The notes under the pieces are model-generated. The model made no database searches, was not told the origin of the DNA, and was given only the letters and a program-made list of their open reading frames with translations. 64,000 nt of DNA from a virus. Below are positions 7,616-51,057 of this stretch, one piece after another; the first letter of the stretch is position 1, and every line of letters begins with the position of its first letter. The DNA lies in IMG/VR virus record IMGVR_UViG_3300033182_000769, positions 96,010 through 160,009 of that record; one strand, given 5' to 3'. The position numbers and the translations under genes are program-made.

Positions 7616-7620
7616 ATTAA

Positions 7621-7628
7621 TACTTACA
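7621..7628 (-). promoter_or_regulatory. Late-promoter octamer, 5 nt before the start of array member 2
   Basis: TGTAAGTA on the minus strand, then TTAAT, then ATG. It overlaps the stop codon of the upstream gene and would restart transcription inside the array. Confidence 0.45.
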
Positions 7629-8716: not shown

Positions 8717-9321
8717 ACTATATTGATATTCAAAATTATACGTTTGTCGTTTTCTTTAGGACTTTGAGAAGTGTGAAAGTGTAGTCCGTCAAACAGTACA
8801 ATTCTGCCTTTCTTTGGTTTAATTCGTTGTTTAATAGTTAAAGGTACCGGCTGCTCAGCATCTTCGCTCCAACGCTCATTAAAAATAACGGTATCACCGT
8901 CTGAATCGTTTACATAATACACCATTACTAAATGTTCATTATACACATCGAGGTGCGGATAATGAATAGCATTATCGTGTGTTGCTCCAGATGCAGGATT
9001 AGGTGTCAGCATATTTGCTTTAACTCTAATAATACCGTGTAAATCTATATTTTCTTCCTCACAAACATAATCTATAATCATTCGAGACATCATGTATGCA
9101 TCATGAGGATCGTACCATAAACTGTCCATAAACAACGGCTTTGTCATTCCTGACGACTCTATATGTTTATAATTGTCTGGAAATGTGAATTCGTTTTTAG
9201 GTGTTTGTGTACCTAATGATAAATTATCCATTGCAAACCAATAGAAGTTATCAGAAGTTAATCTTTCTTCTAATCTGTCCACTAATGCAGGAGGTAGTAA
9301 ATTATCAAAGACCTTAATCAT
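8713..9321 (-). CDS. 2OG-Fe(II) oxygenase, array member 5
   Basis: 202 residues. His123-Leu-Asp125 (HYPHLDVYNEH), central strand VYYVNDSDGDTVIFNERW, KPKKGRIVLFDG then distal His183 and Arg194 (KRIILNINIV). All ligands of a working enzyme are present. It is coupled to member 4 (4-bp overlap) and begins one base inside the stop of member 6 (TAATG). Confidence 0.82.
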   Translation of the reverse strand: MIKVFDNLLPPALVDRLEERLTSDNFYWFAMDNLSLGTQTPKNEFTFPDNYKHIESSGMTKPLFMDSLWYDPHDAYMMSRMIIDYVCEEENIDLHGIIRVKANMLTPNPASGATHDNAIHYPHLDVYNEHLVMVYYVNDSDGDTVIFNERWSEDAEQPVPLTIKQRIKPKKGRIVLFDGLHFHTSQSPKENDKRIILNINIV

Positions 9322-9959
9322 TAATCATCCCATTCTATAGCAAACGAAACAGAAATACGATCTTCTTCGCTGGTTTTATTTACACCAATTTCGTGATCCA
9401 TCCAACCCGGCCAAATTAATAAGTCTCCTTCTCCTGGAGCAAATGTATACGACGATAGTAACAGACTCTTTGAAGATTCTGTTTGATTTAGGTAGTACGC
9501 AAATTGATTTGGGTCAGTGAATGTTATATTTCCTGAATATTTAGGCACTGAAATATAATATGTTCCGGCTAATAAATCCGGAGCATGGTGGTGTCTGCCT
9601 TGAAAACCACCAGGAGGATTAATATTAAACCACATTGTTCTTAATCTAATATTACTATGTGAACGGGTCCACGGAGCATTGAGCTCTCTCATCTTTTCTA
9701 TAATATTATTAACATACTCTGTTGATCTTTCTAAAATTAAGTCTTTAAGATGTTTAAAAACATCAACTTCAAATAACTGAGATGTAAAGTCATCATAAAA
9801 ATAAGTTGTAAAGCCAGTATTATAAAAGTTTCCTTGTCCTTTTACCGGAGATTCATTGTAGATGGATTTAATCCAAGTTAGTATCTCATCGTGGTTAGAA
9901 ACTTTACTTTCTGTATCCAACAGTATTTTTGGAGAAAACGGTGTAAAATATTCTTTCAT
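9321..9959 (-). CDS. 2OG-Fe(II) oxygenase of the TIGR02466 type, array member 6
   Basis: 212 residues and of a different subfamily from the flanking genes. QGRHHHAPDLLAGTYYISVPKYSGNITFTDP followed by GDLLIWPGWMDHEIGVN and RISVSFAIEW is the pattern of the 'putative 2OG-Fe(II) oxygenase' family TIGR02466 (also PF13759), where the first motif is HxH-like. Three more members of this subfamily lie at 49.2, 51.2 and 59.8 kb in this window. GGAAGA precedes the ATG, 1 bp after the upstream stop. Confidence 0.75.
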   Translation of the reverse strand: MKEYFTPFSPKILLDTESKVSNHDEILTWIKSIYNESPVKGQGNFYNTGFTTYFYDDFTSQLFEVDVFKHLKDLILERSTEYVNNIIEKMRELNAPWTRSHSNIRLRTMWFNINPPGGFQGRHHHAPDLLAGTYYISVPKYSGNITFTDPNQFAYYLNQTESSKSLLLSSYTFAPGEGDLLIWPGWMDHEIGVNKTSEEDRISVSFAIEWDD

Positions 9960-9960
9960 G

Positions 9961-10551
9961 TTATAATCTTCCTACTGATTCCTTTGTTATTAAATCTACA
10001 TTTAATATAGTTCTAACGCCGTTAGTTGGCCGACTGCTACTATGATAGTGTTTTCCATTAAAAATTACACATCTTCCTTTTTTAGGTTTGATTGTTTTTT
10101 TAATTGTATAATTATCTGATTTTTCTGTTTCGTTATAAATGATAGTATCTCCGTCAGTATCTGTTAGATAATATAAAACAACAGTGTGTCCAATAGGCAA
10201 ATCTACGTGAGGATTGTTAACTCTATCATCGTCACTTCCTCTAACTGGAAACTGCAAAAATGCTCGCATCCGTAACATTGTTTCAACTTCGTCGTCAATA
10301 TGTTCTAATGCTCTGTACACTATTGGTAAGATATTAAAAAAATCAGGGTGTACACTATCAGGCTTATTTTGTCTATCAAAAATTAACTTAGCGAACCCGT
10401 AGTGATTAACTCTTTTTTCACTTTCCTGTCCGTCGTCAAATGTAATATCTTTTTGAAAATACCATTCGGTATCTCCTCTCATAAAATACCAAGTAATAAA
10501 ATCTTGATGCTGCTTAGGTAATAAATCGTCAATAATTACAATATCATCCAT
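9961..10551 (-). CDS. 2OG-Fe(II) oxygenase, array member 7
   Basis: 196 residues from the ATG at 10551 (a GTG at 10563 is an alternative). His115 and Asp117 in NNPHVDLPIGH, strand VVLYYLTDTDGDTIIYNE, KPKKGRCVIFNGKHYH with distal His170, and Arg180. It starts in the last codons of member 8 (ATGGATGA), so it is coupled to it. It is close in sequence to members 3, 5 and 8, showing serial duplication. Confidence 0.82.
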   Translation of the reverse strand: MDDIVIIDDLLPKQHQDFITWYFMRGDTEWYFQKDITFDDGQESEKRVNHYGFAKLIFDRQNKPDSVHPDFFNILPIVYRALEHIDDEVETMLRMRAFLQFPVRGSDDDRVNNPHVDLPIGHTVVLYYLTDTDGDTIIYNETEKSDNYTIKKTIKPKKGRCVIFNGKHYHSSSRPTNGVRTILNVDLITKESVGRL

Positions 10552-11143
10552 CGACAAATTCACCTAAAAGATTAAAATTGATAATACATCGTAACCCATC
10601 TTGTGGCTGCTCTGCTGTATGATAAACATCTCCATCAAACACTACACATTTATTTTTTTGTGGAGTAACTCGGATCATTTCTTCAAAATCTTCAGCCTCT
10701 AAATCAAACCGTGCTTCGCCTTCTCTTATATGATCAACTAAAATAGTATCACCGTCCGAGTCCATTACGTAATATAACACAACTAAATGTGTGTATGGTT
10801 GATCTGTGTGTAACGCATCAACTTTGGTATTTGTAAAGTTTTCGTGTAATGGCATCTGTAAAAAAGACCGTGCTTTTTGAATATTATGGTATTTGTAATT
10901 TATCTTCTTACAGGCCTCATCAATAATAGGTCTTACTAACTCTAAAAAATCGTCATCATTTTTGTTCCACTCGGTATTCACAAAAACGTGCCCGACTGCC
11001 GGTGTGGCTCTTTCATTAGACCCTGTTCCGTAAGTAATGTCCGTGATCAAGTGCCATGGCGCATTATGGAGTAAAACGTCCTCGATTTCATCGGCAACGT
11101 TTTGATCCAGCAAGTTTTCAATAATCGTTGGTTTTATAATCAT
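10544..11143 (-). CDS. 2OG-Fe(II) oxygenase, array member 8 (first of the operon)
   Basis: 199 residues from ATG 11143, chosen because IIKPTIIENLLDQ matches the N-termini of its paralogs; an ATG at 11182 would add 13 residues. His112-Thr-Asp114 (ALHTDQPYTH), VVLYYVMDSDGDTILVDH, distal His175 (GDVYHTAEQP), Arg185. It is promoter-proximal and divergent from the 693-residue virion protein gene. Confidence 0.8.
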   Translation of the reverse strand: MIIKPTIIENLLDQNVADEIEDVLLHNAPWHLITDITYGTGSNERATPAVGHVFVNTEWNKNDDDFLELVRPIIDEACKKINYKYHNIQKARSFLQMPLHENFTNTKVDALHTDQPYTHLVVLYYVMDSDGDTILVDHIREGEARFDLEAEDFEEMIRVTPQKNKCVVFDGDVYHTAEQPQDGLRCIINFNLLGEFVDG

Positions 11144-11168
11144 TATTTTACACGTACTCTTAACAAGG

Positions 11169-11176
11169 TATTTAGT
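11169..11176 (-). promoter_or_regulatory. Putative late promoter for the oxygenase array
   Basis: ACTAAATA on the minus strand, 25 nt before ATG 11143; with a start about 6 nt downstream the leader would be about 20 nt. Divergent from the plus-strand octamer at 11205. Confidence 0.35.
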
Positions 11177-11204
11177 GAGCATTTTTGCAGGTCTAAGAAA
11201 TATT

Positions 11205-34451: not shown

Positions 34452-34910
34452 ATGACAAACTGGTACGACAAGGTTTCAAAAGATATTTCTGCAATTCCTG
34501 ACGCTGTTGAATACTTTAATACAGAGTTATTAGCAGCAAAGGCAGACCAGAAGGTATCTGGAAGAATTGAACGAATTGCAGCAGAAATGCCTGCTGTGGT
34601 CGAAACCAGATTTTCTCAATTACAAGAAATTGAAGCGATCTTAGAATATCTAAACATTGAACTTCGTCGTTTACGTTCTTCTCACTTCAGAAAGTATGTT
34701 GAAAATTATCAACGTGCTCTTAGTTCGCGAGATGCTGAAAAGTTTGTAGACGGCGAAGCCGATGTTGTAGATTTCGAAAAAATTATTAACGAGTTTGCAC
34801 TAATTCGTAACAAGTGGTTAGGTGTAATTAAAGGTTTAGATATTAAACAATGGCAGGTTAGTAACATTGTTAAATTAAGGACCGCAGGATTAGACGACGC
34901 AACCCTCTAA
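34452..34910 (+). CDS. Helical protein of unknown function in the recombination operon
   Basis: 152 residues, almost fully helical: VSGRIERIAAEMPAVVETRFSQLQEIEAILEYLNIELRRLRSSHFRKYVENYQRALSSRDAEKFVDG. It shares size, helical plan and locus with UvsY-type mediators (T4 UvsY 137 residues), but the sequence match is too weak for me to call it. It converges with the sulfotransferase gene, overlapping by 4 bp. Confidence 0.5.
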   Translation: MTNWYDKVSKDISAIPDAVEYFNTELLAAKADQKVSGRIERIAAEMPAVVETRFSQLQEIEAILEYLNIELRRLRSSHFRKYVENYQRALSSRDAEKFVDGEADVVDFEKIINEFALIRNKWLGVIKGLDIKQWQVSNIVKLRTAGLDDATL

Positions 34911-35521
34911 TATTTAAAATTAAAAAAGTTAATAGGCTTTTCGTAATATTTTCTTACGATATCTACTGTTTCAGTATTATACATATCTTGATAGTGTTTG
35001 TTGTCTCTAAGATTTCCTTTTAACTTAATTTTATTTTTTAACTCATCATTGTAAACAATACCTAATACATTACACACATCTTTCATGTCATCATTTAAAG
35101 AATCGTGTATCATAACTTTATCTACAACTAAATTATCATTCTCATCAGTATAAAGACTCCAGTCGTCTTTGAAGCAATGTTGCTTATTAGATTTAACAAA
35201 TCCATCAAAACCGTTTTTGACTTTTTTAGGTTTGTAACTTTTTATGTAGTAATATAAACTTACAACCTTATCCCATGAATTTCTTTCAACTGTAAATTTA
35301 TAGTAGTCGTTCCACTCTTGTGGGAACTGTTCTTCTATAAATCGCCATCCTTCATGTTCGCAGTCTCCTTCCATGCCAACCGGTGGCATTCCTTCAGGAG
35401 GCATTCCTGCAAATACATAATCGGTACCTGCTATACTATCTAATAAAAATTTTTCAACACTTGATCCGGCAGTTTTTCGAGTTTTAATAAAAATAAATTT
35501 GTACTTGTGTGAGATGATCAT
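34907..35521 (-). CDS. Sulfotransferase family protein
   Basis: 204 residues. FIFIKTRKTAGSSVEKFL near the N-terminus is the 5'-phosphosulfate-binding loop (K-T-x-G-[ST]-S), and TVERNSWDKVVSLYYY around residues 77-92 fits the 3'-phosphate-binding R-N-P-W-D-R-x-V-S-x-Y motif (Pro is Ser here). These mark a PAPS-dependent sulfotransferase, usually acting on carbohydrates. Its neighbours are glycan genes, and an APS-kinase-like protein that could help make PAPS is at 50.2 kb. A late octamer lies exactly 5 nt before the ATG. Confidence 0.75.
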   Translation of the reverse strand: MIISHKYKFIFIKTRKTAGSSVEKFLLDSIAGTDYVFAGMPPEGMPPVGMEGDCEHEGWRFIEEQFPQEWNDYYKFTVERNSWDKVVSLYYYIKSYKPKKVKNGFDGFVKSNKQHCFKDDWSLYTDENDNLVVDKVMIHDSLNDDMKDVCNVLGIVYNDELKNKIKLKGNLRDNKHYQDMYNTETVDIVRKYYEKPINFFNFKY

Positions 35522-35526
35522 AAAAC

Positions 35527-35534
35527 TATTTATT
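35527..35534 (-). promoter_or_regulatory. Late-promoter octamer, 5 nt before sulfotransferase ATG
   Basis: AATAAATA then GTTTT then ATG on the minus strand; divergent from the promoter at 35548. Confidence 0.6.
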
Positions 35535-35547
35535 CATAAACTGCGCA

Positions 35548-35555
35548 TATAAATA
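35548..35555 (+). promoter_or_regulatory. Perfect T4 late promoter, 5 nt before ATG 35561
   Basis: TATAAATA, identical to the T4 late consensus, then TGTGC then ATG. Confidence 0.7.
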
Positions 35556-35560
35556 TGTGC

Positions 35561-36319
35561 ATGAAAGTAGTTATTGTTACAGGTGGTTTTGACCCCATTC
35601 ACTCAGGTCATATTTCGTATATTAAAGCAGCAAAACAATTAGGCGATAAACTAATTGTTGGGCTTAATTCAGATGCTTGGTTAGAACGTAAAAAGGGTAG
35701 AAGTTTTATGCCTTGGGAGGAACGTGCTACAATTTTAGAAGCACTTGCTGATGTCGATCGTGTTATTGTATTTGATGATAGTGATAATACAGCCAAGGGT
35801 GCTATTATTAAAATTAGAAACATTTATCCAGAAGCACACATTGTATTCGCCAACGGAGGTGATAGAACATCTGACAATATTCCTGAAATGGATATTAACG
35901 ACGGCAACACTTCGTTTGAATTTAGTGTTGGCGGCGATGACAAAAAGAACTCAAGCAGTTGGATCCTTACAGAATGGAAAGCACCAAAGACAGAACGTGT
36001 TTGGGGTTACTATCGTGTACTGCATGAAGTAGAAGGCTGTAAAGTAAAAGAACTTACAGTTGATCCTGGTAAAAGTTTGTCAATGCAAAAGCACAGATGG
36101 CGGAACGAGTATTGGCTTGTTAGCGAAGGTAAATGTGTTGTTAATAGTAAGTTAGCGAGCGGGTACACCATTCCTCCTAAGCAACTTGAAAAGCACGACG
36201 AGTATACAATACTATGCGGCGATTGGCATCAACTAACTAATCCGTTTGACGAGCCATGCAGAGTTGTAGAAATACAGTACGGAAAACTCTGCGAAGAAGA
36301 GGATATTGAGAGAGAATGA
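35561..36319 (+). CDS. Cytidylyltransferase-cupin fusion (RfaE/TagD-like plus mannose-6-P isomerase-type cupin)
   Basis: 252 residues from the second ATG (35561); the first, at 35555, lies on the promoter. N-terminal half: VTGGFDPIHSGHISYIKAAKQLGD, the HxGH signature of nucleotidyltransferases that make CDP- or ADP-sugars or CDP-glycerol. C-terminal half (after about residue 145): VWGYYRVLHEVEGCKVKELTV, PGKSLSMQKHRWRNEYWLVSEG, and WHQLTNPFDEPCRVVEIQYG, the pattern of type-II phosphomannose isomerase cupins. The fusion suggests activated-sugar synthesis for the neighbouring glycosyltransferases. The second NTase motif (ISSTxxR) is not obvious. Confidence 0.75.
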   Translation: MKVVIVTGGFDPIHSGHISYIKAAKQLGDKLIVGLNSDAWLERKKGRSFMPWEERATILEALADVDRVIVFDDSDNTAKGAIIKIRNIYPEAHIVFANGGDRTSDNIPEMDINDGNTSFEFSVGGDDKKNSSSWILTEWKAPKTERVWGYYRVLHEVEGCKVKELTVDPGKSLSMQKHRWRNEYWLVSEGKCVVNSKLASGYTIPPKQLEKHDEYTILCGDWHQLTNPFDEPCRVVEIQYGKLCEEEDIERE

Positions 36320-37116
36320 CCCGCTGGACATTTATTAGTAAAGGCGGAGAGGATCCTTACATAAATGCGTTCTGTAAAGGAACAAATGGTCGCTTGGTAG
36401 ATTCTGATAGTTTCAATTATGACGATTCAAGTGAACCAATTGTATTAAGAGGAATACTAAAGAAGAAAATTATTAAACAATGTTGGGAAAACAATCGTGA
36501 TTTTTACTATATGGATACTGGCTACTTTGGAAATGAAACAAATGTTAGAAATCCAAACGGATGGAAATATTGGCATCGAATTGTAAAAAATAATCTACAG
36601 CATAATGAAATTGTTGATCGCCCGTCAGACAGATTTGAAAGATTAGGAAAACAGTTCTCGCCTTGGAGAACATCAGGCCGTAATATTCTAATTGCCGCAC
36701 CAGACGAAAAACCTATGAAGTTTTATGGTTTAGACTTAGATACATGGATTGACGAAACTGTTACAACAATTAAAAAATATACAGATAGGCCTGTCATTGT
36801 TCGCCGTCGCGACAAGAATCGTATTAATAGAATACAAAATGATACACTGGAAGAAGCATTAAAAGATACATTCGCATTGGTAACATTTAATAGTAATGCT
36901 GCAACTGAAAGTATTTTTTACGGTGTTCCTGTTTTTACATTAGCACCAGTTCATGCTGCAAGACCAGTTGCGTCAACAGATTTAAGCCAAATAGAACGTC
37001 CTTACTACCCGAGTGAAGATAAATTATTTAAGTGGGGATGCCACTTGGCATACGGCCAGTTTCACATGAGCGAACTCAAATCAGGAAAAGCAAAAGAAAT
37101 GTTGGAGGAGCAATGA
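36316..37116 (+). CDS. KpsC/capsule-synthesis-like glycosyltransferase, paralog A
   Basis: 266 residues, coupled to the upstream gene (4-bp overlap). The conserved C-terminal half has FALVTFNSNAATESIFYGVPVFTLAP then VASTDLSQIERP and GQFHMSELKSGKAKEML. The 'NS-N-A-x5-I-x-G-[VI]-P' core and the trailing 'DLS-IE-P' are those of capsule polysaccharide biosynthesis proteins (KpsC/KpsS type, PF05159), retaining Kdo-transferase-like enzymes. First of five family members within 6.5 kb. Confidence 0.65.
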   Translation: MTRWTFISKGGEDPYINAFCKGTNGRLVDSDSFNYDDSSEPIVLRGILKKKIIKQCWENNRDFYYMDTGYFGNETNVRNPNGWKYWHRIVKNNLQHNEIVDRPSDRFERLGKQFSPWRTSGRNILIAAPDEKPMKFYGLDLDTWIDETVTTIKKYTDRPVIVRRRDKNRINRIQNDTLEEALKDTFALVTFNSNAATESIFYGVPVFTLAPVHAARPVASTDLSQIERPYYPSEDKLFKWGCHLAYGQFHMSELKSGKAKEMLEEQ

Positions 37117-37832
37117 TTAGAATTTTTATTGGCTACGACTCAAATGAAGTAGTAGCATATCACACACTATGTCACAGTATTTTAAGACACAGTTCGCAGC
37201 CGGTGTCATTTACACCAATTGCAAGAAATACCATCGAAAATTTATATAAAAAACCTAAAGGCGAAAAAGAGTCAACTGAGTTTTCGTTGACACGTTTCCT
37301 TGTACCTTACCTATCTGACTTCCACGGTTGGTCTATCTTTATGGACTGCGATATGCTTGTTACAGAAGATATTGCAAATTTATGGAACTTAAGAAATGCC
37401 GACAATGCAGTTATGTGTGTGCAACACGACTATTCTCCAACTACGACACGTAAGTTTTTGAATCAAGAACAAACAGTCTATCCTAAGAAAAATTGGTCAA
37501 GTGTAATGATGTTTAACAACAATTTATGCAGAGCATTGACACCGACATACGTTGAAGAAGCAAGTGGTTTAGAACTACATCAATTTAAGTGGTTAGAAGA
37601 TGCTGACGGTTTGGTAGGAGCACTTCCACCTAAATGGAACTTCTTAGTAGGCGAAGAACAAATGTATGACGAAGGAGTTCCAAGTCTTATACATTACACA
37701 CTTGGCGGACCGTACTTTAACGACCACAGAGATGTTGATTATGCAGACTTGTGGTACGAAGAAAATCGTTTAGCAAATCATGCAACACAGATTACTACGG
37801 AATACACAGAACAAATGATCAAGGGTAAGTAA
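37113..37832 (+). CDS. Glycosyltransferase, GT8-like
   Basis: 239 residues from ATG 37113, overlapping the upstream stop (ATGA) with GGAGGAG before it; the longer open frame to 37032 is not needed. RIFIGYDSNEVVAYHTLCHSIL at the start and WSIFMDCDMLVTEDIANLW with a DxD-like motif (DCD) in the middle are typical of nucleotide-sugar GT-A enzymes of family 8. HYTLGGPYF near the end supplies the usual His. Acceptor and sugar unknown. Confidence 0.72.
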   Translation: MIRIFIGYDSNEVVAYHTLCHSILRHSSQPVSFTPIARNTIENLYKKPKGEKESTEFSLTRFLVPYLSDFHGWSIFMDCDMLVTEDIANLWNLRNADNAVMCVQHDYSPTTTRKFLNQEQTVYPKKNWSSVMMFNNNLCRALTPTYVEEASGLELHQFKWLEDADGLVGALPPKWNFLVGEEQMYDEGVPSLIHYTLGGPYFNDHRDVDYADLWYEENRLANHATQITTEYTEQMIKGK

Positions 37833-38614
37833 TGCCAAAGGATCCAGATAAAATTTCAATAGAAGAGAAGTTTGTAGCAAGTACAAATGGGGCTCTTACA
37901 ACTGACATCAACAGCGACAAGCCGTTAGTTGTTAGAGGTGTTACTTCTAAAACTGAAATGGATATTTGTGAAGAACAAGGCAGAGACTATTATTACATCG
38001 ATACTGGATATGTAGGGAATTTTCCAAGTATAGGTAACCCTAAAGGTGCAAAAATTTGGCATCGTATTGTAAAAAATAAAATGCAGCATGACGTTATAGA
38101 ATCTGCTCCTGATGATCGTTGGAACAATTTAATTTCGCAAGATCCTAACCTTAAGTTTAAAGGTTGGAAGAAACATGAAAATAAAATTCTATTTGTTCCA
38201 CCAAATCCTAAGGCGTGTAAAGCATTTAACATTGATTATCAAGAATGGATGGAAACAACAAAGCATACTATTGAACAAACGACTGATATTCCCATAGAAG
38301 TTCGTATAAAAGGATCTCGTTCAGAAAGAAATCATGCAAATACAATTTATGATGCATTACAAGGAACTTATGCAGTAGTGACTTTTAATAGCATAGCAGC
38401 ACTTGAAGCAATACTATTTGGAGTACCGGCTTTTGTCGCTGTTCCGTGCGCGGCAAGTCCATTAGCATCAAATAACTTAAACGATTTAACGAAACCGTTT
38501 TACCCGTCAGCAGGAAAAATAATCCAACAATGTAAAAATATCGCATACGGTCAGTTTACTGTTGATGAAATTGAAAATGGTACTGCTTGGAATATTTTGC
38601 AGGAACGATCATGA
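37832..38614 (+). CDS. KpsC/capsule-synthesis-like glycosyltransferase, paralog B
   Basis: 260 residues, starting in the stop of the GT8 gene (TAATG). It parallels paralog A over the whole length: DYYYIDTGYVGNF, WHRIVKNKMQHD, DDRWNNL, then VVTFNSIAALEAILFGVPAFVAVP, NNLNDLTKPFYPS and GQFTVDEIENGTAWNIL. Clear product of duplication. Confidence 0.65.
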   Translation: MPKDPDKISIEEKFVASTNGALTTDINSDKPLVVRGVTSKTEMDICEEQGRDYYYIDTGYVGNFPSIGNPKGAKIWHRIVKNKMQHDVIESAPDDRWNNLISQDPNLKFKGWKKHENKILFVPPNPKACKAFNIDYQEWMETTKHTIEQTTDIPIEVRIKGSRSERNHANTIYDALQGTYAVVTFNSIAALEAILFGVPAFVAVPCAASPLASNNLNDLTKPFYPSAGKIIQQCKNIAYGQFTVDEIENGTAWNILQERS

Positions 38615-39720
38615 AATTATTACTTAACGATAAAGAAATTGCGCACTATCTAACTTCGTTAATAGACCTTACGCCTGATGTTAAGTCCGGGGTTGAGTTT
38701 AATAATCTTGAAATTGCAGAAGTTGTAGTTGTTTTTAAAAGTCAACAAAGAAACAAACCTCATAAGCAAAGAAAGTTAAATCTTAAAGGTAAACAAAAGA
38801 TATATCATAAAATTAAACGTGCTACTGAAAAAGATGTCAAACAATATTTTAAAGATATTAAAGAACGAATTGTAGTTTGTAAAAATTTAAAGTTTCATGA
38901 GATACATAACAACATAGAATATTTTATTGAAACTCTCGGAAAAGAAAAAATCTTTGATCTTTACAAAAAAGACAAACATCAAGTCGACTTTGTTAAAGGT
39001 ACAGGTTTATCTCTTGATAAATCTGGAGAGTTTATTAGACGTAAAGAATTTAAAGACTACACCAACGACTGCTTAATTAGAAATACTGTCGGAAATGAAG
39101 AATTATTGGTCACTAAGATTGATAACAACTATCCTATGTGGTTTATTGATAGTGGTTATACAAATTTCTTAGAAACAAATAAAAAGTGGCATAGATTAGT
39201 TCGTAATCATTTACACTTTGGCAAATATTTTGATGCTCCGTCGGATAGGTTAGGTAATATCAAAGAATTTCCTAAACCATGGCGAAATGATGGAGAAATT
39301 ATCTATATTATTGAGCCGGGACCGTTTGCAGCGGCAATATTTCATGCAGATTTAAAAACTTGGAAGTACGAAGTTGCAAAAGAACTTAGAAAATACACAG
39401 ACAAGCGGATTGTTTTCCGTAAAAAAGCACCAAAGCGTAATAGACCAAGTCTAATAGAACAATTACAGAACGAAGACTATCATTGTATCGTTAGTTTAAA
39501 CAGTAATGCCGCTACAGAGGCAATTTGGCAAGGAATTCCTGTAATTACACTTGGAACACACATTACAAATCCAGTTAGTAGAAATAACTTAGCGGATATT
39601 GACAATTTATACAAAGGACCTTTAGGTAACTGGCTGGCGTATCTAAGTTATAGTCAGTTTTCAAAGGAAGAATTACTAAATGGTACCGCACAAGAGATTG
39701 TAAGGAAGTATCATGTCTAA
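38611..39720 (+). CDS. KpsC-like glycosyltransferase, paralog C with N-terminal extension
   Basis: 369 residues from ATG 38611 (ATGA overlap with B). The first 110 or so residues are extra, Lys-rich and helical, and unlike the other copies. From there it follows the family: WFIDSGYTNFLETNKKWHRLVRNHLHFG, APSDRLGN, VSLNSNAATEAIWQGIPVITLG, RNNLADIDN, SQFSKEELLNGTAQEI. The extension may bind acceptor or partner. Confidence 0.62.
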   Translation: MKLLLNDKEIAHYLTSLIDLTPDVKSGVEFNNLEIAEVVVVFKSQQRNKPHKQRKLNLKGKQKIYHKIKRATEKDVKQYFKDIKERIVVCKNLKFHEIHNNIEYFIETLGKEKIFDLYKKDKHQVDFVKGTGLSLDKSGEFIRRKEFKDYTNDCLIRNTVGNEELLVTKIDNNYPMWFIDSGYTNFLETNKKWHRLVRNHLHFGKYFDAPSDRLGNIKEFPKPWRNDGEIIYIIEPGPFAAAIFHADLKTWKYEVAKELRKYTDKRIVFRKKAPKRNRPSLIEQLQNEDYHCIVSLNSNAATEAIWQGIPVITLGTHITNPVSRNNLADIDNLYKGPLGNWLAYLSYSQFSKEELLNGTAQEIVRKYHV

Positions 39721-40636
39721 ATTAACAGCAGTTGCTTACTATAAAGGCATTCCACCTAACAATAAGAACATAGAGAAGCCTGCAATTCTCGATAATTTTA
39801 TTGCAGGCGTTAATGCAGTTGGCGATAATGGTGTTAAGCACAATGGCATGGGTGCAATTCCGTGTGATGTTGCATTGATACAAGGGTTTGTACACGAACA
39901 TGGAAAAAATGCGCCGCATCTTGCTCTAAGAAGGTCTGCTGTTGAGATGCAAAAACAAAATAATAAAAGATCTTTAATAGTTGATAGCAACTTATTTCTT
40001 TATGCTACTCCCGGTAACCCCAAGCATTACCTAAGATACAGTTTTGACGGAGTTTTTCCAACAACGGGTTTTTACTTTGACAAAAATGTTGACCCGACGC
40101 GGTGGCAACAGATAAGTCAAGATCTAAACATCAAATTAAAGCCATGGAGAACCGAAGGAAACCATATTTTAATTTGTTTACAAAGAAATGGTGGTTGGTC
40201 AATGCGTGGCCTTGACGTAATGCAATGGTTAAATCAAACTATAGCAACTATTAGACAGTTTTCTGGAAGACCTATTGTTGTTAGAGCACACCCTGGCGAT
40301 AAAAAAGCAAAAGCATACTTGAGAATATCGCAACCTAACGTTAGAATCAGCACAAAATTAAATTTATTGGAAGACTTGCGTGGTGCGTGGGCAACAATTG
40401 TCTATAATTCAAGCCCGGCAGTAGCAAGTTCTATAGAAGGTATTCCTGTTTTCTTAACAGATCCACAACCAGAACATAGTCAAGCATACGAAGTATCAAA
40501 TACTGACCTTTCAAAGATAGAAAATCCACTGTTGCCTGAACGACAAGGCTGGATTGAAAAATTATCCATGTGCCATTGGAACTTTGACGAACTAAGATCA
40601 GGTAAGGCTTGGAATTTTATGAGGAAATACGTTTAA
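39713..40636 (+). CDS. KpsC-like glycosyltransferase, paralog D
   Basis: 307 residues, overlapping C by 8 bp. Family core: GRPIVVRAHPGDKKAKAY, AWATIVYNSSPAVASSIEGIPVFL, SNTDLSKIENPLLPE, CHWNFDELRSGKAWNFM. The NS-core is altered (NSSPAVASS), closer to paralog E. The N-terminal domain is different from A-C, suggesting another donor or acceptor. Confidence 0.62.
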   Translation: MSKLTAVAYYKGIPPNNKNIEKPAILDNFIAGVNAVGDNGVKHNGMGAIPCDVALIQGFVHEHGKNAPHLALRRSAVEMQKQNNKRSLIVDSNLFLYATPGNPKHYLRYSFDGVFPTTGFYFDKNVDPTRWQQISQDLNIKLKPWRTEGNHILICLQRNGGWSMRGLDVMQWLNQTIATIRQFSGRPIVVRAHPGDKKAKAYLRISQPNVRISTKLNLLEDLRGAWATIVYNSSPAVASSIEGIPVFLTDPQPEHSQAYEVSNTDLSKIENPLLPERQGWIEKLSMCHWNFDELRSGKAWNFMRKYV

Positions 40637-41478
40637 CGTTTAAATTGTTGCCAGTAAGGTTCAGTTCTTGGAACCTTTAAATCATCTCTATGACTCATTC
40701 CGGTGTTCTTCCTACCACCTTTTAAGTGATCTAACCAAGCACCCCATTGGCTATTAATCAAAGGATGACCTTCACCGGTACTCATTCCCGGTCTTGGACG
40801 AAGATCGTGTAAATTTGCAGCCCAGTCATGCTGCTTTAAACCAGGAATTGTCTTTTTAACTTCGTCAAACACAAAACTATCGTGCCATTCAGCCATTTGA
40901 AAAATGCCTTGTTCGGCCTGATCATAAACACGTTGAAATTCTTTTAAAAAGTTTAATGTAGCAGGGCTGGAAAGTTTCATAGCATATAATCCGCACTCAC
41001 TATATTTGCCTCTCCTGCCTAAATAACACAAATCTTGGTTATTAGGTAACATATATTTTAAGTTTTCTTCGTTAATTGGACTATGACAAATGGTGTCAGC
41101 ATCCATCCACATTAGCCATTCACTATCACACATATTAGCACAGGCAAAAATTGAGTAAACTTTATGGGCAAACCGAATAGCGTTCCATTTGAACCCTTTT
41201 CCGCTGTCTTTTCGTCGACTTCTAATCGGGTCATTAGATACATCGCCGTTAGCCTTTGGCGCATCTCTCCACTTTTCTTTAAATCTAACAAGCTCGGGGC
41301 TTGCTTGATGGAGATTAAATACTTTAAGGTTAGGTGCCTGCTCATCAACACAACAATTTTCAGCAAAAACGTACAAATTTACACTTGATGGCCAATTTTC
41401 TAAGAATGTCTGTATCATCCTCTTACCGTATAAATCGTATCCTGCTTTATGAAATGTTGTAACTACTGATAAATTCAT
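40633..41478 (-). CDS. Glycosyltransferase-like protein (GT-A fold)
   Basis: 281 residues from ATG 41478 (ATGA overlap with the upstream gene). NLSVVTTFHKAGYDLYGKRMIQTFLENWP at the start and CDSEWLMWMDADTICHSPI with a DxD motif around residue 130 suggest a nucleotide-diphospho-sugar transferase. KHDWAANLHDLRPRP near the end is characteristic of a group of phage proteins without assigned family. It faces paralog D tail to tail. Confidence 0.6.
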   Translation of the reverse strand: MNLSVVTTFHKAGYDLYGKRMIQTFLENWPSSVNLYVFAENCCVDEQAPNLKVFNLHQASPELVRFKEKWRDAPKANGDVSNDPIRSRRKDSGKGFKWNAIRFAHKVYSIFACANMCDSEWLMWMDADTICHSPINEENLKYMLPNNQDLCYLGRRGKYSECGLYAMKLSSPATLNFLKEFQRVYDQAEQGIFQMAEWHDSFVFDEVKKTIPGLKQHDWAANLHDLRPRPGMSTGEGHPLINSQWGAWLDHLKGGRKNTGMSHRDDLKVPRTEPYWQQFKR

Positions 41479-41873
41479 TTTAATTTCTTCCACGTATGGT
41501 AATAACCTTGTTGCTCAACTGCTCCGTACCCGGTTCGGTACAATGTTTGTGATAAATCTCGGCCAATGACCTCATCGCCTTCAATTACAACTAACGAATG
41601 CCACTTATTAAGTATAATAACAATATCATCTATCTTTTTTGTTTTGTCTCTATCGACAAATACTACAGAAATATCGTTTAGAAAATCCTTACCAGCACCG
41701 TGTTCTCTAAAAATTAAATTTTTGGCTTTAATTTTAGGAGCAGTTGGTGCAAATACAAACACAGATTTAAATACTTCAAGTATATCTTCTAAATGACCAA
41801 ACCCTTCTCCCAGAACAATGGCGTTCTGTGGATTCTTTTTTGTTTTTAAGAGTCTCTTTTGAAATTTTTCCAT
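41475..41873 (-). CDS. Protein of unknown function in the glycan block
   Basis: 132 residues, beginning MEKFQKRLLKTKKNPQNAIVLGEGFGHLEDILEVF. The pattern (strand, GEGFG turn, helix, then SVFVFAP and ISVVFVDRD) suggests a small Rossmann-like fold, perhaps a reduced methyltransferase, but no catalytic motif is identifiable. It is coupled to the glycosyltransferase behind it. Confidence 0.45.
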   Translation of the reverse strand: MEKFQKRLLKTKKNPQNAIVLGEGFGHLEDILEVFKSVFVFAPTAPKIKAKNLIFREHGAGKDFLNDISVVFVDRDKTKKIDDIVIILNKWHSLVVIEGDEVIGRDLSQTLYRTGYGAVEQQGYYHTWKKLK

Positions 41874-41899
41874 TGTTTTTCATTAACTGCGCTGTTATT

Positions 41900-41907
41900 T
41901 ATAAGTA
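41900..41907 (+). promoter_or_regulatory. Late-promoter-like octamer, 4 nt before ATG 41912
   Basis: TATAAGTA then TAGT then ATG. The start is chosen accordingly. Confidence 0.45.
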
Positions 41908-41911
41908 TAGT

Positions 41912-42766
41912 ATGCGGTTTAAAATTTTTAGAGAGTTTGGTTCACTAAACAGTCCACCGGTATTTGATGCATTTGAGCAAGGACTAAAAAACATCGGCCA
42001 CGAAGTAGTAACTACTAACGAAGATGTTGGTGTAATATGGAGTGTCCTTTGGAACGGCCGCATGATGCGTAATCAATCTATATATAACGAGTACCGATCA
42101 AAAAACAAACCTATTATAATTATTGAAGTTGGTAATCTACTACGCAACAAAACCTGGAGAGTATGCCTTAATCATATAAACGGCGAAGGCCTATTTGGCA
42201 ATAATAACGACTTAGATGTTAACAGACCAAGTAAACTTAACGTTAGATTACAACATATTAAAAATCATAGACGCCCTGAGATCTTAATAGCGACACAACA
42301 TAACAGAAGCCTTCAATGGGAAGGTATGCCTCCTATGAGTAGTTGGGTTGATAATATTTTGGAAAAAATTCGAGCCTTTTCGGACAGAAAAGTTATAGTT
42401 AGACCACATCCACGCTCTCCTTTGAGATTAAATAAAAGTGACCCATCTGTTACTTTGCAAGTTCCTGCAAAAGTAGCAGGAAGTTACGATGACTTTGATA
42501 TTAATTACGGTTATCATTGTGTTATTAACCATAACAGTGGCCCTCCGGTTCAAGCAGCAATACACGGAGTGCCGGTAATTTGTCACAAAACCAGTCTGGC
42601 ATATCCTGTTTCTTCAACTTATGAAGATATAGAAAATATTGCACTTCCTGATAGAGAAGAATGGTTTTTAAAATTGACACACACCGAATGGACTGTTGAT
42701 GAGATCGCACAAGGGATACCGTTGAAACGAATAGAAAACTTAATACGAAGTCAAATTAGCCGTTGA
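41912..42766 (+). CDS. KpsC-like glycosyltransferase, paralog E
   Basis: 284 residues from ATG 41912; a longer open frame to 41828 overlaps the divergent gene and is unsupported. RFKIFREFGSLNSPPVFDAFEQG at the N-terminus, DRKVIVRPHPRSPLRL (the HPR-type segment of PF05159), YHCVINHNSGPPVQAAIHGVPVICHK, YEDIENIALPDREEWFLKLTHTEWTVDEI. The core is the family's, though only distantly like A-C. The end overlaps the next promoter. Confidence 0.62.
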   Translation: MRFKIFREFGSLNSPPVFDAFEQGLKNIGHEVVTTNEDVGVIWSVLWNGRMMRNQSIYNEYRSKNKPIIIIEVGNLLRNKTWRVCLNHINGEGLFGNNNDLDVNRPSKLNVRLQHIKNHRRPEILIATQHNRSLQWEGMPPMSSWVDNILEKIRAFSDRKVIVRPHPRSPLRLNKSDPSVTLQVPAKVAGSYDDFDINYGYHCVINHNSGPPVQAAIHGVPVICHKTSLAYPVSSTYEDIENIALPDREEWFLKLTHTEWTVDEIAQGIPLKRIENLIRSQISR

Positions 42767-42798: not shown

Positions 42799-43992
42799 AT
42801 GACAAGTACAGTCTTCATAGAAGATATTTTTATTCAATTATGCGATACATTAGATTTCGCTCCTGTTTCGTTTCAGAAGCAAGACCGCTCTGCTATTGTT
42901 AGTTTCTATAGTACTCTTATAACAAATCAGAGACTAACTCAAAATCAAGGAAATTATATTTTACGGTTGTTAGGCAAGTACCGTAATCTATCAAAAATGC
43001 ACGGGTTTGATTACGAAGAGCACCTTGCTGACCCTAAATGGAGAAATCCATTTAGAACTCTCGATATGTCCAGAAAAGTATGGTTGGAACAAGATAGCGA
43101 AGGATGTCCTTGGATATGTTTAAAATTTCCGTACTTACTTAAAAAGGAATTTGAAGAAGCAATTCTTATTGCTGATTCATTCGAAGGTAGAGATTTTGGC
43201 AACGTATGGGATAAAGAAAGACGTGTTCGAATGCTATCCTTATATGAGTTTAACATTGTTCAGGTATATGATTTTATAAAAGATAACCATTTCGAAATAG
43301 ATGAATCGTTTTATGATGCACTTGCTTCAGTCGAAGAAATTTGGCAAAAGCAGGACGATGTTATAAAGACTTGTACAATTTCTAACAGTAAAGTACAACT
43401 AAACAATGCCAATGAAGATGCATTAACATACTTTAAGAATAATTCTATCAATAACATAACAAATGATTTATTGTTAGCAAAGTCTATGGGATACTATTTT
43501 GCGCAACAACCGTCAAATAAGGCGCAAAAAATAGCCGGTACAAAAACCACCCAGTTTTACGTGTCAAATTACAAAGATTTGTTTGAAATTGCGTCACAAA
43601 TACAAGGAAATATTGTATTTGTAATAGATAGAACTGTAGATGCCTTAGAATGGCTTAAAACATTAAAGACGAACATTGACCTTAACAATATTAATAGAGA
43701 AGAATTTAAGGTTTGTTTTAGAGAATCCAATAAAGATAACCCGGAATTTAATAATTGGGTTAAAGAAAACGGCTTTGGCGGTAAAGTTGATACAGGAAAG
43801 TATTTAATTTTTAAACATAAACCAGCAAAGTGGTTGTTCTCTAACAATATTGATGTTAAAATAATAGTTACTAATAATGTTTATCCGTCAACTAATCCGT
43901 TGACTAAACAATGGATAGCAACACATCCGTGTGTAATTTATTTTGATGAAGTTAAACCTTCATATGGGAGTAATACTATTGTCGAGTTGTAA
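42799..43992 (+). CDS. Conserved-position phage protein of unknown function before uvsW
   Basis: 397 residues. No domain recognised. FIQLCDTLDFAPVSFQKQDRSAIVSFYSTLITNQRLTQNQGNYILRLLG at the N-terminus is helical; later VFVIDRTVDALEWL and IKIIVTNNVYPST look like alternating strands of an alpha/beta domain. It overlaps uvsW by 14 bp and has a consensus early promoter, so a replication or recombination role is likely by association. Confidence 0.5.
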   Translation: MTSTVFIEDIFIQLCDTLDFAPVSFQKQDRSAIVSFYSTLITNQRLTQNQGNYILRLLGKYRNLSKMHGFDYEEHLADPKWRNPFRTLDMSRKVWLEQDSEGCPWICLKFPYLLKKEFEEAILIADSFEGRDFGNVWDKERRVRMLSLYEFNIVQVYDFIKDNHFEIDESFYDALASVEEIWQKQDDVIKTCTISNSKVQLNNANEDALTYFKNNSINNITNDLLLAKSMGYYFAQQPSNKAQKIAGTKTTQFYVSNYKDLFEIASQIQGNIVFVIDRTVDALEWLKTLKTNIDLNNINREEFKVCFRESNKDNPEFNNWVKENGFGGKVDTGKYLIFKHKPAKWLFSNNIDVKIIVTNNVYPSTNPLTKQWIATHPCVIYFDEVKPSYGSNTIVEL

Positions 43993-45943: not shown

Positions 45944-46303
45944 ATGACAATGAAAGCAGGCAAGGTATGGGGTCAAACAGAATTGATCCACGCAAACGGT
46001 GTACTTGAGTTTCATCGTATTGAATACAAAAAAGGCTACAAGTGTAGTGAACACGAACACAAGTACAAGTGGAATGGCTTCTTTGTAGAGTCAGGTAAGA
46101 TGATTGTTCGTGTATGGCAAGACGCAGATCAAGAAGGATTAGTTGATGAAACAATTTTAGGTCCAGGAGAGTTTACACAAGTTAAGCCAGGCAAGGTACA
46201 TCAGTTTGAAGGCGTAGAAGACGGTGTAGCATTTGAGCTTTACTGGGCTGAGTTTAATCATGATGATATTGTGCGTAGAACTGTAGGTAGTAAGTCTAAA
46301 TGA
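45944..46303 (+). CDS. Cupin-domain protein
   Basis: 119 residues. CSEHEHKYKWNGFFVESGKMIVRV is cupin motif 1 (H-x-H-x3-4-E-like with His-Glu-His), and ETILGPGEFTQVKPGKVHQFEG is motif 2 with the fourth ligand His. One small beta-barrel, metal binding likely. Related in type to the cupin half of the 35.6-kb protein, so a sugar isomerase, epimerase or sensor role is possible. Ribosome site AAGGAGAAAGGA precedes it; it starts 10 bp after the previous gene. Confidence 0.7.
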   Translation: MTMKAGKVWGQTELIHANGVLEFHRIEYKKGYKCSEHEHKYKWNGFFVESGKMIVRVWQDADQEGLVDETILGPGEFTQVKPGKVHQFEGVEDGVAFELYWAEFNHDDIVRRTVGSKSK

Positions 46304-46989
46304 TTAAAGGCTTTGTTATTGTAAAAGAAGGCGACGAAACGTCAAACCAATTAGCAGAAGAATGTATTGCTTCTGGTGCTGATCATGGGTTTAATATTGA
46401 AAAGTTTTCTGGAGTTTACGATAACATCGATCAATTATTTGAAACCAATAAACTTTTTGTTAACCCAGATGGAAACAAAAAAGTACGAACAAATGGTGTG
46501 AAGGGTTGTTTCCTTTCACACTTTTCTTTATGGAAAAAGTGTGTCGAACTAAACGAAACTATTGCTGTATTCGAATACGATGCATTAGTTATAAACACAC
46601 TGCCAAAGAATATCGTTAAGAAGTTTGATGATTATTTGAATTTAGATTATGCAAGACATTTATATCTTAACGAAGATGTAGAAAAATATAAATCTGAATT
46701 AATATCGTCAGATGAAATACTAACTTATAAATTTAGTGAAAATATAGATTCTGATAAACGAAGTTTTAAGTATATTAACAGAAATCATATTAGAGGAGCA
46801 TACGGTTATTTAATTACTCCTAATGGCGCATCTAAACTCATCAACGCTGCAAGAACAGAAGGTATGCTTCCTGCAGATGTATTGCCGAATATGAAGTATA
46901 TTAATTTACATTATACAACACCAAGTGTTGTAAGACTAAATCCAAAGATGTTAGAAAATTTAACAACTTGGTCACACACCAAGAGGTAA
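46300..46989 (+). CDS. Glycosyltransferase family 25 protein
   Basis: 229 residues, coupled to the cupin gene. GVKGCFLSHFSLWKKCVELNETIAVFEYDALV around residues 67-98 is the family 25 (LPS biosynthesis) signature, with E-Y-D where the nucleotide-sugar-binding E-D-D is usual. AYGYLITPNGASKLI is the other typical motif. Such enzymes add hexoses to lipo-oligosaccharide or collagen-like hydroxylysine. The latter is notable in a phage with many hydroxylase-like genes. Confidence 0.78.
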   Translation: MIKGFVIVKEGDETSNQLAEECIASGADHGFNIEKFSGVYDNIDQLFETNKLFVNPDGNKKVRTNGVKGCFLSHFSLWKKCVELNETIAVFEYDALVINTLPKNIVKKFDDYLNLDYARHLYLNEDVEKYKSELISSDEILTYKFSENIDSDKRSFKYINRNHIRGAYGYLITPNGASKLINAARTEGMLPADVLPNMKYINLHYTTPSVVRLNPKMLENLTTWSHTKR

Positions 46990-46991
46990 TA

Positions 46992-47624
46992 ATGGAACAT
47001 TTAGTTGAAAAGAGAAAAGGCTGGTGGTGGCCAAAGTACGATGTTGCTTGTTGGAAGTTTTTAATAAGACGTCGAAACTTACCCGCAAAAGTAAGTGAAT
47101 TTTGTGATAGTAAACGTGTAGTTATTCAAGCAGGAGGAAATGCAGGTATGTATCCTGCAATGTATGGAGACTTGTTTGAAACAGTTTATACGTTTGAACC
47201 TGATCCTCTTAATTTCTATTGCTTAACTAAGAATGTAAAAGATAATGTTGTTAAATTTCAAGGTTGTGTTGGCAATAATAGAAATTTAGTTGACATCAGT
47301 TTGCTACCTGCGGTAGGCCATTCGCCAAACTCTGGCGCATTTCAAGTTGCTGGCAGCGGAAGCATCCCAACATTTATTATTGATGATTTTAATTTTAAAA
47401 ACGTTGATTTAATACATCTTGATATTGAAGGGTTTGAACTATTTGCTCTTAAAGGTGCAGTTAAAACAATTCAACAATGGCATCCAACAATTGCATTAGA
47501 GTTAAATGGACTTGCAGAACGATACGACCATTCAGACCATGATGTTGTGCAGTTTTTAAAAGAACACGGGTATGAGCGTGTAGACACCGCAGACGATGAC
47601 GTGATTTTCAAATGGGTACATTAA
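46992..47624 (+). CDS. FkbM-family methyltransferase
   Basis: 210 residues from ATG 46992, preceded by AGAGG; upstream ATG 46968 is open but overlaps the GT25 gene. RVVIQAGGNAGMYPAMYGDLFETVYTFEPDPLNFYCL is the SAM-binding motif I and post-I, IDDFNFKNVDLIHLDIEGFELFALKGA is motif II typical of FkbM O-methyltransferases, which often methylate sugars. It overlaps the next gene by 13 bp. Confidence 0.82.
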   Translation: MEHLVEKRKGWWWPKYDVACWKFLIRRRNLPAKVSEFCDSKRVVIQAGGNAGMYPAMYGDLFETVYTFEPDPLNFYCLTKNVKDNVVKFQGCVGNNRNLVDISLLPAVGHSPNSGAFQVAGSGSIPTFIIDDFNFKNVDLIHLDIEGFELFALKGAVKTIQQWHPTIALELNGLAERYDHSDHDVVQFLKEHGYERVDTADDDVIFKWVH

Positions 47625-49989: not shown

Positions 49990-50190
49990 ATGCAACACTT
50001 AGGTGGAATTAAACATTTAAACAGACGTTGGGAATCGTTAGGAGCACTATTGCATTGTATCAACACACAATGCAAAGATGAAGATATTTTGTTTTACGAT
50101 GGTAAAGTAATTCAAACTAACAAAGGTGAGTATTCATTTGATAGTGATGGAAACCTAACTTATGTTCCTAAAGAAGGTATCGATGAATGA
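49990..50190 (+). CDS. Small protein, 'KHLNR-W' family, copy 1
   Basis: 66 residues: KHLNRRWESLGALLHCI, DILFYDGKVIQTNKGEYSF. A second copy lies at 51054 with the same KHLNR-W start and TNKG-Y strand. Each copy precedes or flanks the nucleotide-kinase pair. Function unknown. Confidence 0.5.
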   Translation: MQHLGGIKHLNRRWESLGALLHCINTQCKDEDILFYDGKVIQTNKGEYSFDSDGNLTYVPKEGIDE

Positions 50191-50654
50191 AAATACTAAT
50201 CTGTGGTCTACCAGGATCAGGTAAGACTACGCTTGCAGAACCATTTGCAAAATTAATTGGCGCAGTATGGATTAATGCTGACTCTGTAAGAAGAGAGTAT
50301 GACGACTGGGATTTTACTACAGAAGGTCGTATTAGACAAGCACAACGTATGCGCTACTTGGCAGATGGCATTGTTAAAGCGGGTAAGGTGTGTGTAGCAG
50401 ACTTTGTTGCGCCTACTAAAAAAGCACGTGATGAGTTTGAAGCAGATTACGTTGTATGGATGGACACTGTTAAGAAATCACGAAGTGTGAATGGACCAGC
50501 AGCAGAAGGAAGTACATACGCACAGACTGATGCAATGTATGAGCCGTTAAATAAAGATGAGTACAATTATCATGTATCCGAGTGGTTTGACGATACACAT
50601 CAACAACTTGTAAAAGTTGTTTCTGAATATATAGTGAAGGAAGATAATGTTTGA
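50187..50654 (+). CDS. APS-kinase-like P-loop kinase
   Basis: 155 residues. Walker A GLPGSGKTT at residues 7-15, then WINADSVRREYDDWDFTTEGRIRQAQRMRYLADGIVKAGKVCVADFVAPTKKARDEF follows adenylylsulfate kinase (CysC: D-x2-R, 'FT-E-R--QA-R', 'V-DFV-PT-KAR'). The final residues are compatible with a short kinase. If true, it makes PAPS, the sulfate donor for the sulfotransferase at 34.9 kb. Other small P-loop kinases (for example nucleotide kinases) cannot be excluded. Confidence 0.65.
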   Translation: MKILICGLPGSGKTTLAEPFAKLIGAVWINADSVRREYDDWDFTTEGRIRQAQRMRYLADGIVKAGKVCVADFVAPTKKARDEFEADYVVWMDTVKKSRSVNGPAAEGSTYAQTDAMYEPLNKDEYNYHVSEWFDDTHQQLVKVVSEYIVKEDNV

Positions 50655-51057
50655 TTGGAAAAAGCCCACTACACAAATATTAGGTAGATGGCAACCGTGG
50701 CATGATGGCCACACTGCATTGTTTAAAAAAGCACTTGCTGAAACCGGCCAAGTGTGTATTATGGTTCGTGATGTAGGCGGAATCGTAGGTGAAGATGCCG
50801 GCGCAGGTCGTACCGTAGCTCAAGATGATAACCCGTTCCATTGGCAGCAAGTAAAAGCAAATATTACTCAGGCGCTTTGGGATGAAGGATTTTTAGAAAA
50901 CGAAGACTACGTTATTATGCAGGTGCCTAATATCGTTGATATTAGTTACGGACGTGGCGTTGGTTATACCTTTACTCAACATGATTTAGGTGAAGAGATT
51001 CACAGCATTAGTGCTACTAAAATTAGAGCACAATTAAGGGAAGAAGGCAAACTTTGA
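50647..51057 (+). CDS. Nucleotidyltransferase with HxGH motif
   Basis: 136 residues, overlapping the kinase by 8 bp. ILGRWQPWHDGHTALFKKAL carries the HxGH motif (His-Asp-Gly-His), and ISATKIRAQL at the end is the ISSTxxR motif; together they give a complete nucleotidyltransferase active site. NMN adenylyltransferases (NadM) and ATP-sulfurylase-like enzymes both fit; pairing with a CysC-like kinase favours the sulfate route but NAD salvage is possible. Confidence 0.7.
   Translation: MFDWKKPTTQILGRWQPWHDGHTALFKKALAETGQVCIMVRDVGGIVGEDAGAGRTVAQDDNPFHWQQVKANITQALWDEGFLENEDYVIMQVPNIVDISYGRGVGYTFTQHDLGEEIHSISATKIRAQLREEGKL

Follow-up and report, generated by a model that had tools for sequence, protein, structure and literature searches.

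The window analysed here is a stretch of 64,000 nucleotides that forms the final 64 kb of a virus record with 160,009 bp (IMGVR_UViG_3300033182_000769, positions 96,010 to 160,009). Its genes are of T4 type and encode UvsX and UvsW as well as proteins of the tail sheath, tube and baseplate. A cassette of glycan genes located between uvsX and uvsW contains five paralogs, A to E, which are predicted to have the reduced GT-B fold of the beta-transferases of 3-deoxy-D-manno-oct-2-ulosonic acid (Kdo), KpsC, WbbB and KrkA, and in which the catalytic nucleophile of these enzymes is absent. The reading that we favour, and to which we give about an even chance, is that this cassette is expressed late and glycosylates virion proteins by means of KpsC-fold enzymes with a changed mechanism or donor.

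Fold of the five paralogs

The paralogs A (36316..37116, +; 266 aa), B (37832..38614, +; 260 aa), C (38611..39720, +; 369 aa), D (39713..40636, +; 307 aa) and E (41912..42766, +; 284 aa) are intact open reading frames (ORFs) with mutual similarity well beyond chance, in agreement with an original prediction made from the letters of the window. With A as query, the complete record returned B (E = 9e-57), C (5e-34), D (6e-20) and E (3e-5), and the five are the sole family members in it by this search. That prediction had also described a shared N-terminal motif, N-S-x6-I-x-G-[VI]-P, which in its literal form occurs in none of the five, whereas N-S-x9-G-[VI]-P occurs in all of them. A common C-terminal block is likewise present throughout, as [QHE][FW]-x3-E-[LI]-x2-G-x-[AP], and the N-terminal parts do differ, C carrying an extension of about 110 residues.

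AlphaFold models of A and D, made from alignments of 51 A/B and 56 D/E sequences, reached mean predicted local distance difference test (pLDDT) values of 95.3 and 95.6, respectively. When the D model was compared with the PDB by Foldseek, ranks 1-19 were all Kdo transferases (KpsC 8fuw, E 3.7e-8), as were the first ten matches of the A model (KrkA 9yfx, 6.9e-6; KpsC 8fux, 5e-5). The template modelling (TM) scores of the two models to KpsC, WbbB and KrkA are only ~0.36-0.59, and the relation is therefore a distant one. B, C and E were assigned to the fold by homology to the modelled A and D, and by prediction the reduced GT-B fold of the KpsC (GT107), WbbB N-module (GT99) and KrkA N-module (GT140) type is established for A to E, together with the N-S...G-P block. 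In contrast to these enzymes, the paralogs are single modules of 260-370 aa, and structural alignments give ~10-15% identity. Among predicted viral structures, the closest named matches were 'capsule polysaccharide biosynthesis proteins' of Tetraselmis virus 1 (TM ~0.7, E to 8e-18), which, unlike the phage of the window, is a giant virus of an alga.

The original prediction had made the fold of PF05159 its test, and the answer is divided: by fold the proteins fall inside, by sequence profile outside. Even at E<=1 the record yields no match to PF05159, and among D/E relatives 2 of 56 match (best E 1e-3); membership by sequence profile was rejected since no match reached the gathering score, and the relation is visible only from the folds. 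Searches of PDB sequences with A/B and D/E profiles did not recover the Kdo-transferase relation either. In profile-profile comparison, D/E aligned colinearly with bacterial KpsC-N over 265 columns, with G161 of D falling on the nucleophile Asp (with a low probability of 25%, pairwise E 1.5e-4; against a mixed set of KpsS and KpsC, 82% and E 1e-6). Neither set could be aligned by sequence with the A profile, and Pfam returned a weak match of A/B to DUF6716, 'putative glycosyltransferase'.

Catalytic residues and the sugar donor

The beta-Kdo transferases are described as the only well-characterised retaining glycosyltransferases that use double displacement via a covalent Asp adduct, and their evolutionary origin is called unclear (PMC10148158, PMC12887879). 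In KpsC, WbbB and KrkA, the Asp of a QXXXD motif attacks the donor to form the Kdo adduct, the Gln of the motif holds the Kdo carboxylate, and a (K/R)XHP motif binds cytidine monophosphate (CMP) (PMC10148158, PMC12887879). QXXXD has been called absolutely conserved in the three characterised families, and the D160A variant of KpsC is inactive (PMC10148158, PMC12887879). Bacterial PF05159 proteins served as a control: frames reading cleanly through the site carry both QXXXD and (K/R)XHP.

The Asp is absent from all five paralogs. D has QRNGGWSM with Gly161 at the nucleophile position and keeps RAHP, and E has QHNRS with Ser133 at this position and keeps RPHP. In A, B and C, where the Gln is missing as well, QXXXD is replaced by PDEK, PNPK and EPGxF, respectively, and (K/R)XHP is absent, with VRRRDK, VRIKG and FRKKA standing in its place. 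These states are maintained in orthologs. The nucleophile position is Gly in 34/34 close D sequences and Ser in 15/15 E sequences; the D class has QR-x-x-G-W-S-M and the E class QH-x-x-S-x-Q-W, each with an invariant HP; the A/B class has P-x-x-K and C has EPGxF, both without HP. Non-redundant family proteins comprise 101 with QXXXG, 97 with QXXXS, 25 with QXXXD, 249 with neither motif nor HP, and 7 unclassified with HP. In a tree built without the motif columns and not rooted with KpsC, WbbB or KrkA, D and E each form one clade (Shimodaira-Hasegawa-like approximate likelihood ratio test, 99 each), A, B and C fall on the other side, and the QXXXD proteins fall into two clades (99 each), apart from one phage row on a long branch. 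From the characterised enzymes we infer that QXXXD is the ancestral state.

The KpsC mechanism of Kdo transfer, which the original prediction had in mind, is thus contradicted for A to E as judged from their sequences, the nucleophile being gone in all and the CMP motif in A, B and C. A CMP-ulosonate donor appears plausible for D and E only. Since their Gln and HP residues are kept, D and E probably still bind CMP-Kdo or a similar compound, and A, B and C, having lost both sites, probably use another donor.

Related phages possess additional paralogs with the canonical motif, and contigs of this kind tend to include genes for Kdo supply. Three QXXXD-bearing contigs have a CTP_transf_3 gene directly beside a homolog of Kdo-8-phosphate synthase (KdsA), at 5889-7317 in L239, 9042-10470 in L240 and 11310-12735 in L241, and in L239 the pair is situated <1 kb beyond the gene following UvsW. 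The KdsA homologs pass the equivalog cut-off NF003543 in 3/3 cases and TIGR01362 in 2/3; the CTP_transf_3 proteins match CMP-Kdo synthetase (KdsB) models below the cut-offs of those models and are here called KdsB-like. Across 64 contigs, KdsA was matched in 11/18 with a QXXXD paralog vs 1/46 without (Fisher p 4.5e-7, a value that overstates independence because the contigs are related to each other). In three of the seven QXXXD contigs that have no KdsA match (G108, G113 and G142), the retrieved stretch ends before UvsW and the position of the pair falls outside view. Neither KdsA nor CTP_transf_3 was detected in the record of the window or in two relatives of 195-199 kb. The search for a donor that had been proposed for this record thus yielded no CMP-Kdo synthetase, and no NeuB, the enzyme sought for a sialic or legionaminic acid pathway. 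Both kdsA and kdsB have already been listed among viral genes in the literature.

Make-up and expression of the cassette

From UvsX towards UvsW, the window encodes conserved proteins of 78 and 152 aa, a sulfotransferase (34907..35521, -; PF03567, E 1.1e-5; phrog_3347), a nucleotidyltransferase-cupin fusion (35561..36319, +), A, a GT8 glycosyltransferase (37113..37832, +; PF01501, 5e-7), B, C and D, followed by a GT-A-type glycosyltransferase (40633..41478, -; WMDADT motif, GT2 match with E 0.005), the 132-aa protein P9 (41475..41873, -; no family match), the gene of which overlaps that of GT-A, then E and a conserved protein of 397 aa. Neighbouring genes from the fusion through D share a few bases at their junctions and were read as one operon. 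The fusion, for which the listed ORF starts at 35555 and the probable true start is 35561, joins a HIGH-type, cytidylyltransferase-like nucleotidyltransferase domain resembling HldE-C/RfaE domain II (PF01467, 4e-16) to a cupin of the mannose-6-phosphate isomerase type (PF01050, 4e-18). After UvsW there follow a single cupin-domain protein (45944..46303, +; PF07883, 1.5e-7), a probable satellite of the glycan genes, a GT25 glycosyltransferase (46300..46989, +; PF01755, 2e-22) and an FkbM-type methyltransferase (46992..47624, +; PF05050, 1e-14). The companion genes named in the original prediction were recovered by Pfam matches.

Scans of viral contigs returned at least 80 loci each for D and E, and 7, 6 and 25 for A, B and C. 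Across 92 loci with both UvsX and UvsW, in which some contigs are represented repeatedly, the position of the cassette between the two genes is maintained, in aquatic phages with >50 non-identical architectures. Its core consists of the nucleotidyltransferase-cupin fusion, which is the first cassette gene and is kept in nearly all relatives, and of D, GT-A and E; also common are A, B, C, GT8 and the 132-aa protein. The variable part comprises, among others, sulfotransferases, epimerases, a UDP-sugar dehydrogenase, a polysaccharide pyruvyltransferase and several methyltransferases. Some relatives encode GT8 and an A-like domain as one fused protein (L119:1555-3288, L011:5315-6967), hinting that the two enzymes act in sequence. 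Among 1398 proteins encoded between UvsX and UvsW, two or more predicted transmembrane segments were found in a single ORF of 69 aa, present in two overlapping loci, and the cassettes thus have no exporter, flippase or polymerase; of a group 2 capsule system, neither a multi-transmembrane exporter in the cassettes nor PF05159 in the record was found. A complete decorated glycan, as had been envisaged, would fit this gene make-up, and the combination of a conserved core with variable decorating genes resembles a bacterial serotype locus that is here virus-borne.

The pattern ATAAATA resembles the T4 late promoter, the exact box of which is TATAAATA. One such exact box heads the main glycan operon (35548..35555, +), 5 nt ahead of the likely start codon at 35561; another precedes the P9/GT-A operon (41896..41903, -) by 22 nt from the ATG; and the sulfotransferase has an ATAAATA box (35527-35534, -) exactly 5 nt before its ATG. 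The window has 3 exact boxes against 7 expected and thus shows no enrichment, and the informative element is the shorter ATAAATA, judged by its position. Over both strands, the record has 33 copies of it, and 24 boxes lie <=80 nt upstream of genes vs 5.4 expected; the genes concerned include tail tube, baseplate and other structural genes. In relatives, TAAATA was found upstream of the nucleotidyltransferase-cupin gene in 75/84, of P9 in 60/61 and of E in 81/87 distinct sequences, with shuffle means of 18, 12 and 11, although the P9 and E counts are not independent because the divergent genes share a short AT-rich spacer. It also precedes gp32 in 34/39 sequences of relatives, and was found before none of the flanking genes (UvsX 0/53, UvsW 0/85, the gene of the 152-aa protein, p152, 0/75, and p167, next after UvsW, 0/62). 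Sigma-70 promoters in the cassette are no commoner than chance. This pattern of boxes would place the cassette with the virion genes.

At some genes the box stands 4-5 nt from the ATG and no ribosome-binding site intervenes (window 16998, 23065, 25504, 29199, 34907-35521 on the minus strand, and 35561; L205 11060, minus strand). At other genes the box is 15-30 nt away, mostly with a ribosome-binding site. The short spacing suggests that late mRNAs of this clade of phages are leaderless.

The 397-aa protein (42799-43992, +) has no Pfam or PHROG match and stands directly before UvsW in 157 loci. Two neighbouring paralogs resembling nicotinamide mononucleotide adenylyltransferases (50187-51057, +; family f14) belong to a family also seen within the UvsX-UvsW cassette of some relatives. 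Bacterial relatives of the nucleotidyltransferase-cupin protein are found in L210 (8001-8813), in a gmd-fcl-WecA-like polysaccharide locus, and in L211; the two match the query alike yet are binned as Gammaproteobacteria and Flavobacteriales, and one assignment may be wrong. A radical S-adenosylmethionine (SAM) protein is encoded elsewhere in the same record (L204:14749-16074, -; phrog_14086, E 1e-12). The UvsX of the window is nearest to those of Sinorhizobium/Agrobacterium and Salmonella jumbo phages.

The acceptor and alternative roles

In the model that we favour, a glycan-assembly cassette would have been inserted between the uvsX and uvsW neighbourhoods in a clade of large phages from aquatic habitats that have T4-type genes. 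The nucleotidyltransferase-cupin fusion would make or channel an activated sugar; GT8, GT-A and the five KpsC-fold enzymes would add sugars stepwise in the cytoplasm; and methyl-, sulfo- and, in relatives, pyruvyltransferases would cap the product. The paralogs would descend from the beta-Kdo transferase superfamily and be unable to perform double displacement with an Asp nucleophile. D and E may employ host-supplied CMP-Kdo or a similar donor by another transfer route, perhaps direct inverting displacement, and a different donor is probable for A, B and C. The cassette would be switched on late together with the virion genes, and its acceptor would be a virion protein, e.g. a tail fibre or capsid decoration. 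Such a protein appears the likeliest acceptor because expression looks late and because neither membrane machinery nor base-modification enzymes were found. There is a precedent in mycobacteriophages, where capsid and tail-tube proteins are glycosylated (Freeman et al. 2023, as cited in PMC12619734), in different hosts and phages. A search of the genome for collagen-like Gly-X-Y acceptor proteins found none.

Several points weigh against this model. Late timing is read from the boxes in the sequence, the E gene of the window itself has the off-consensus box TATAAGTA, and a late promoter would equally suit enzymes that modify the host surface just ahead of lysis. With the nucleophile gone, some of the paralogs could be inactive partners. 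The record is possibly incomplete, at 160 kb vs 195-199 kb in two relatives, which makes absences provisional, although these two relatives, besides lacking the Kdo genes mentioned above, have no TET or thymidylate-synthase-type genes either.

The original prediction had left the choice between the virion and the host surface open. The late-promoter boxes favour the virion; remodelling of the host surface, by which lipopolysaccharide or capsule precursors would be extended or capped so as to block rival adsorption or the trapping of progeny on debris, is kept as a tentative alternative. A role of this kind is the published proposal for pelagimyophage glycosyltransferases (PMC7029224), the bacterial relative of the nucleotidyltransferase-cupin protein in L210 sits in a gmd-fcl polysaccharide locus, and GT8, GT25 and KpsC-like folds are typical for surface-glycan synthesis. 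However, no membrane-bound polymerase, flippase, acyltransferase or initiating transferase is encoded in any cassette, and late promoters at the heads of the main operons would act late for superinfection exclusion. T4-like phages carry glucosyltransferase genes near uvsX, such as beta-gt of T4, and the position of the cassette beside uvsX recalls this arrangement. Hypermodification of phage DNA bases by the glycosyltransferases is nevertheless very improbable in our estimate, although phage enzymes that build glycans on DNA are reported (Pyle et al. 2024, as cited in PMC12619734). No hydroxymethylase of the thymidylate synthase fold (PF00303 fold) was found in the record or in 9/10 large relatives, and no Tet_JBP above cut-off; these absences, in a record that is possibly incomplete, disfavour the idea. 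In addition, the top fold matches are Kdo transferases rather than DNA glucosyltransferases, and the boxes are late instead of pointing to expression at the time of replication.

Two further explanations concern the enzymes themselves, and we consider both unlikely. A to E might remain true beta-Kdo transferases with a relocated nucleophile or another catalytic residue, with either a virion or a host molecule as acceptor. In D and E, the Gln that binds the carboxylate and the HP that binds CMP are kept without exception, Gram-negative hosts supply CMP-Kdo, and active sites do shift within the group, as the general base of KrkA differs from that of KpsC and WbbB (PMC12887879). The strict conservation described for the Asp and the dead KpsC variant (PMC10148158) speak against this, as does the loss of both motifs in A, B and C. 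Alternatively, the paralogs without nucleophile might be non-catalytic subunits or lectin-like scaffolds for GT8 and GT-A, a role to which the loss of the Asp in all five would lend itself and for which the GT8-A fusions of relatives would suit a binding module. However, the class-specific invariant residues (GWSM in D, SxQW in E, PxxK in A/B) look like a changed active site and not like decay, and donor-binding residues are kept in D and E.

Other phages carry comparable genes in different surroundings. Like the pelagimyophages (HTVC008M group and Pelagibacter phage Mosig EXVC030M), the phage of the window is a T4-type aquatic phage with GT8-rich glycan genes (PMC7029224). Mosig has two A/B relatives beside glycosyltransferase, methyltransferase and sulfotransferase genes, but these adjoin ribonucleotide reductase genes and are not between uvsX and uvsW; the passages on the pelagimyophage island in PMC7029224 place it in the tail-fibre region and mention no KpsC-type fold. 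In the Caulobacter phages CcrColossus and CcrSC (Dolichocephalovirinae), homologs annotated as hypothetical proteins (~30% identity) are clustered with glycosyltransferase and FkbM genes, but are placed immediately behind the tail genes, ahead of the lysis genes, and have the motifs QRGIGS and QTSTW. We also considered a moraphage lineage with four core glycosyltransferases (PMC12619734), for which Bacteroidota hosts are predicted, and did not equate it with the phage of the window.

One broader possibility, which we put forward with considerable reserve, is that the beta-Kdo fold has been turned into several new glycosyltransferase classes, all serving serotype-like particle glycans. D (QXXXG) and E (QXXXS) would be inverting enzymes that act on CMP-ulosonates without a covalent intermediate, and A, B and C would use another donor. 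Sister phages with QXXXD, often with their own Kdo-8-phosphate synthase and probably CMP-Kdo synthetase, would complete a series from canonical to altered enzymes. The hundreds of phage relatives in which the Asp is kept, exchanged for Gly or Ser, or lost with the motif would show how a mechanism is abandoned while the fold persists, and, should the virion carry the glycan, the particle surface of aquatic phages would vary much as bacterial capsules do. Phage glycosyltransferase islands and KpsC-fold enzymes are each already known; a limited literature search found no earlier phage example in which the fold is kept and the nucleophile dropped in several ways within a late, serotype-like cassette.

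Elsewhere in the window, eight neighbouring genes for proteins of ~200 aa (6399-11182, -), seven of them with matches to 2-oxoglutarate-Fe(II) oxygenases (PF13640/PF13759, some just under cut-off), adjoin tail-fibre and baseplate genes and possibly encode hydroxylases of virion proteins. A tryptophan halogenase (2879-4513, +; phrog_2928, E 4e-149) is encoded between glycine-rich tail-fibre-like paralogs (57-2806) and this oxygenase run, a placement that suggests unusual chemistry of virion proteins.

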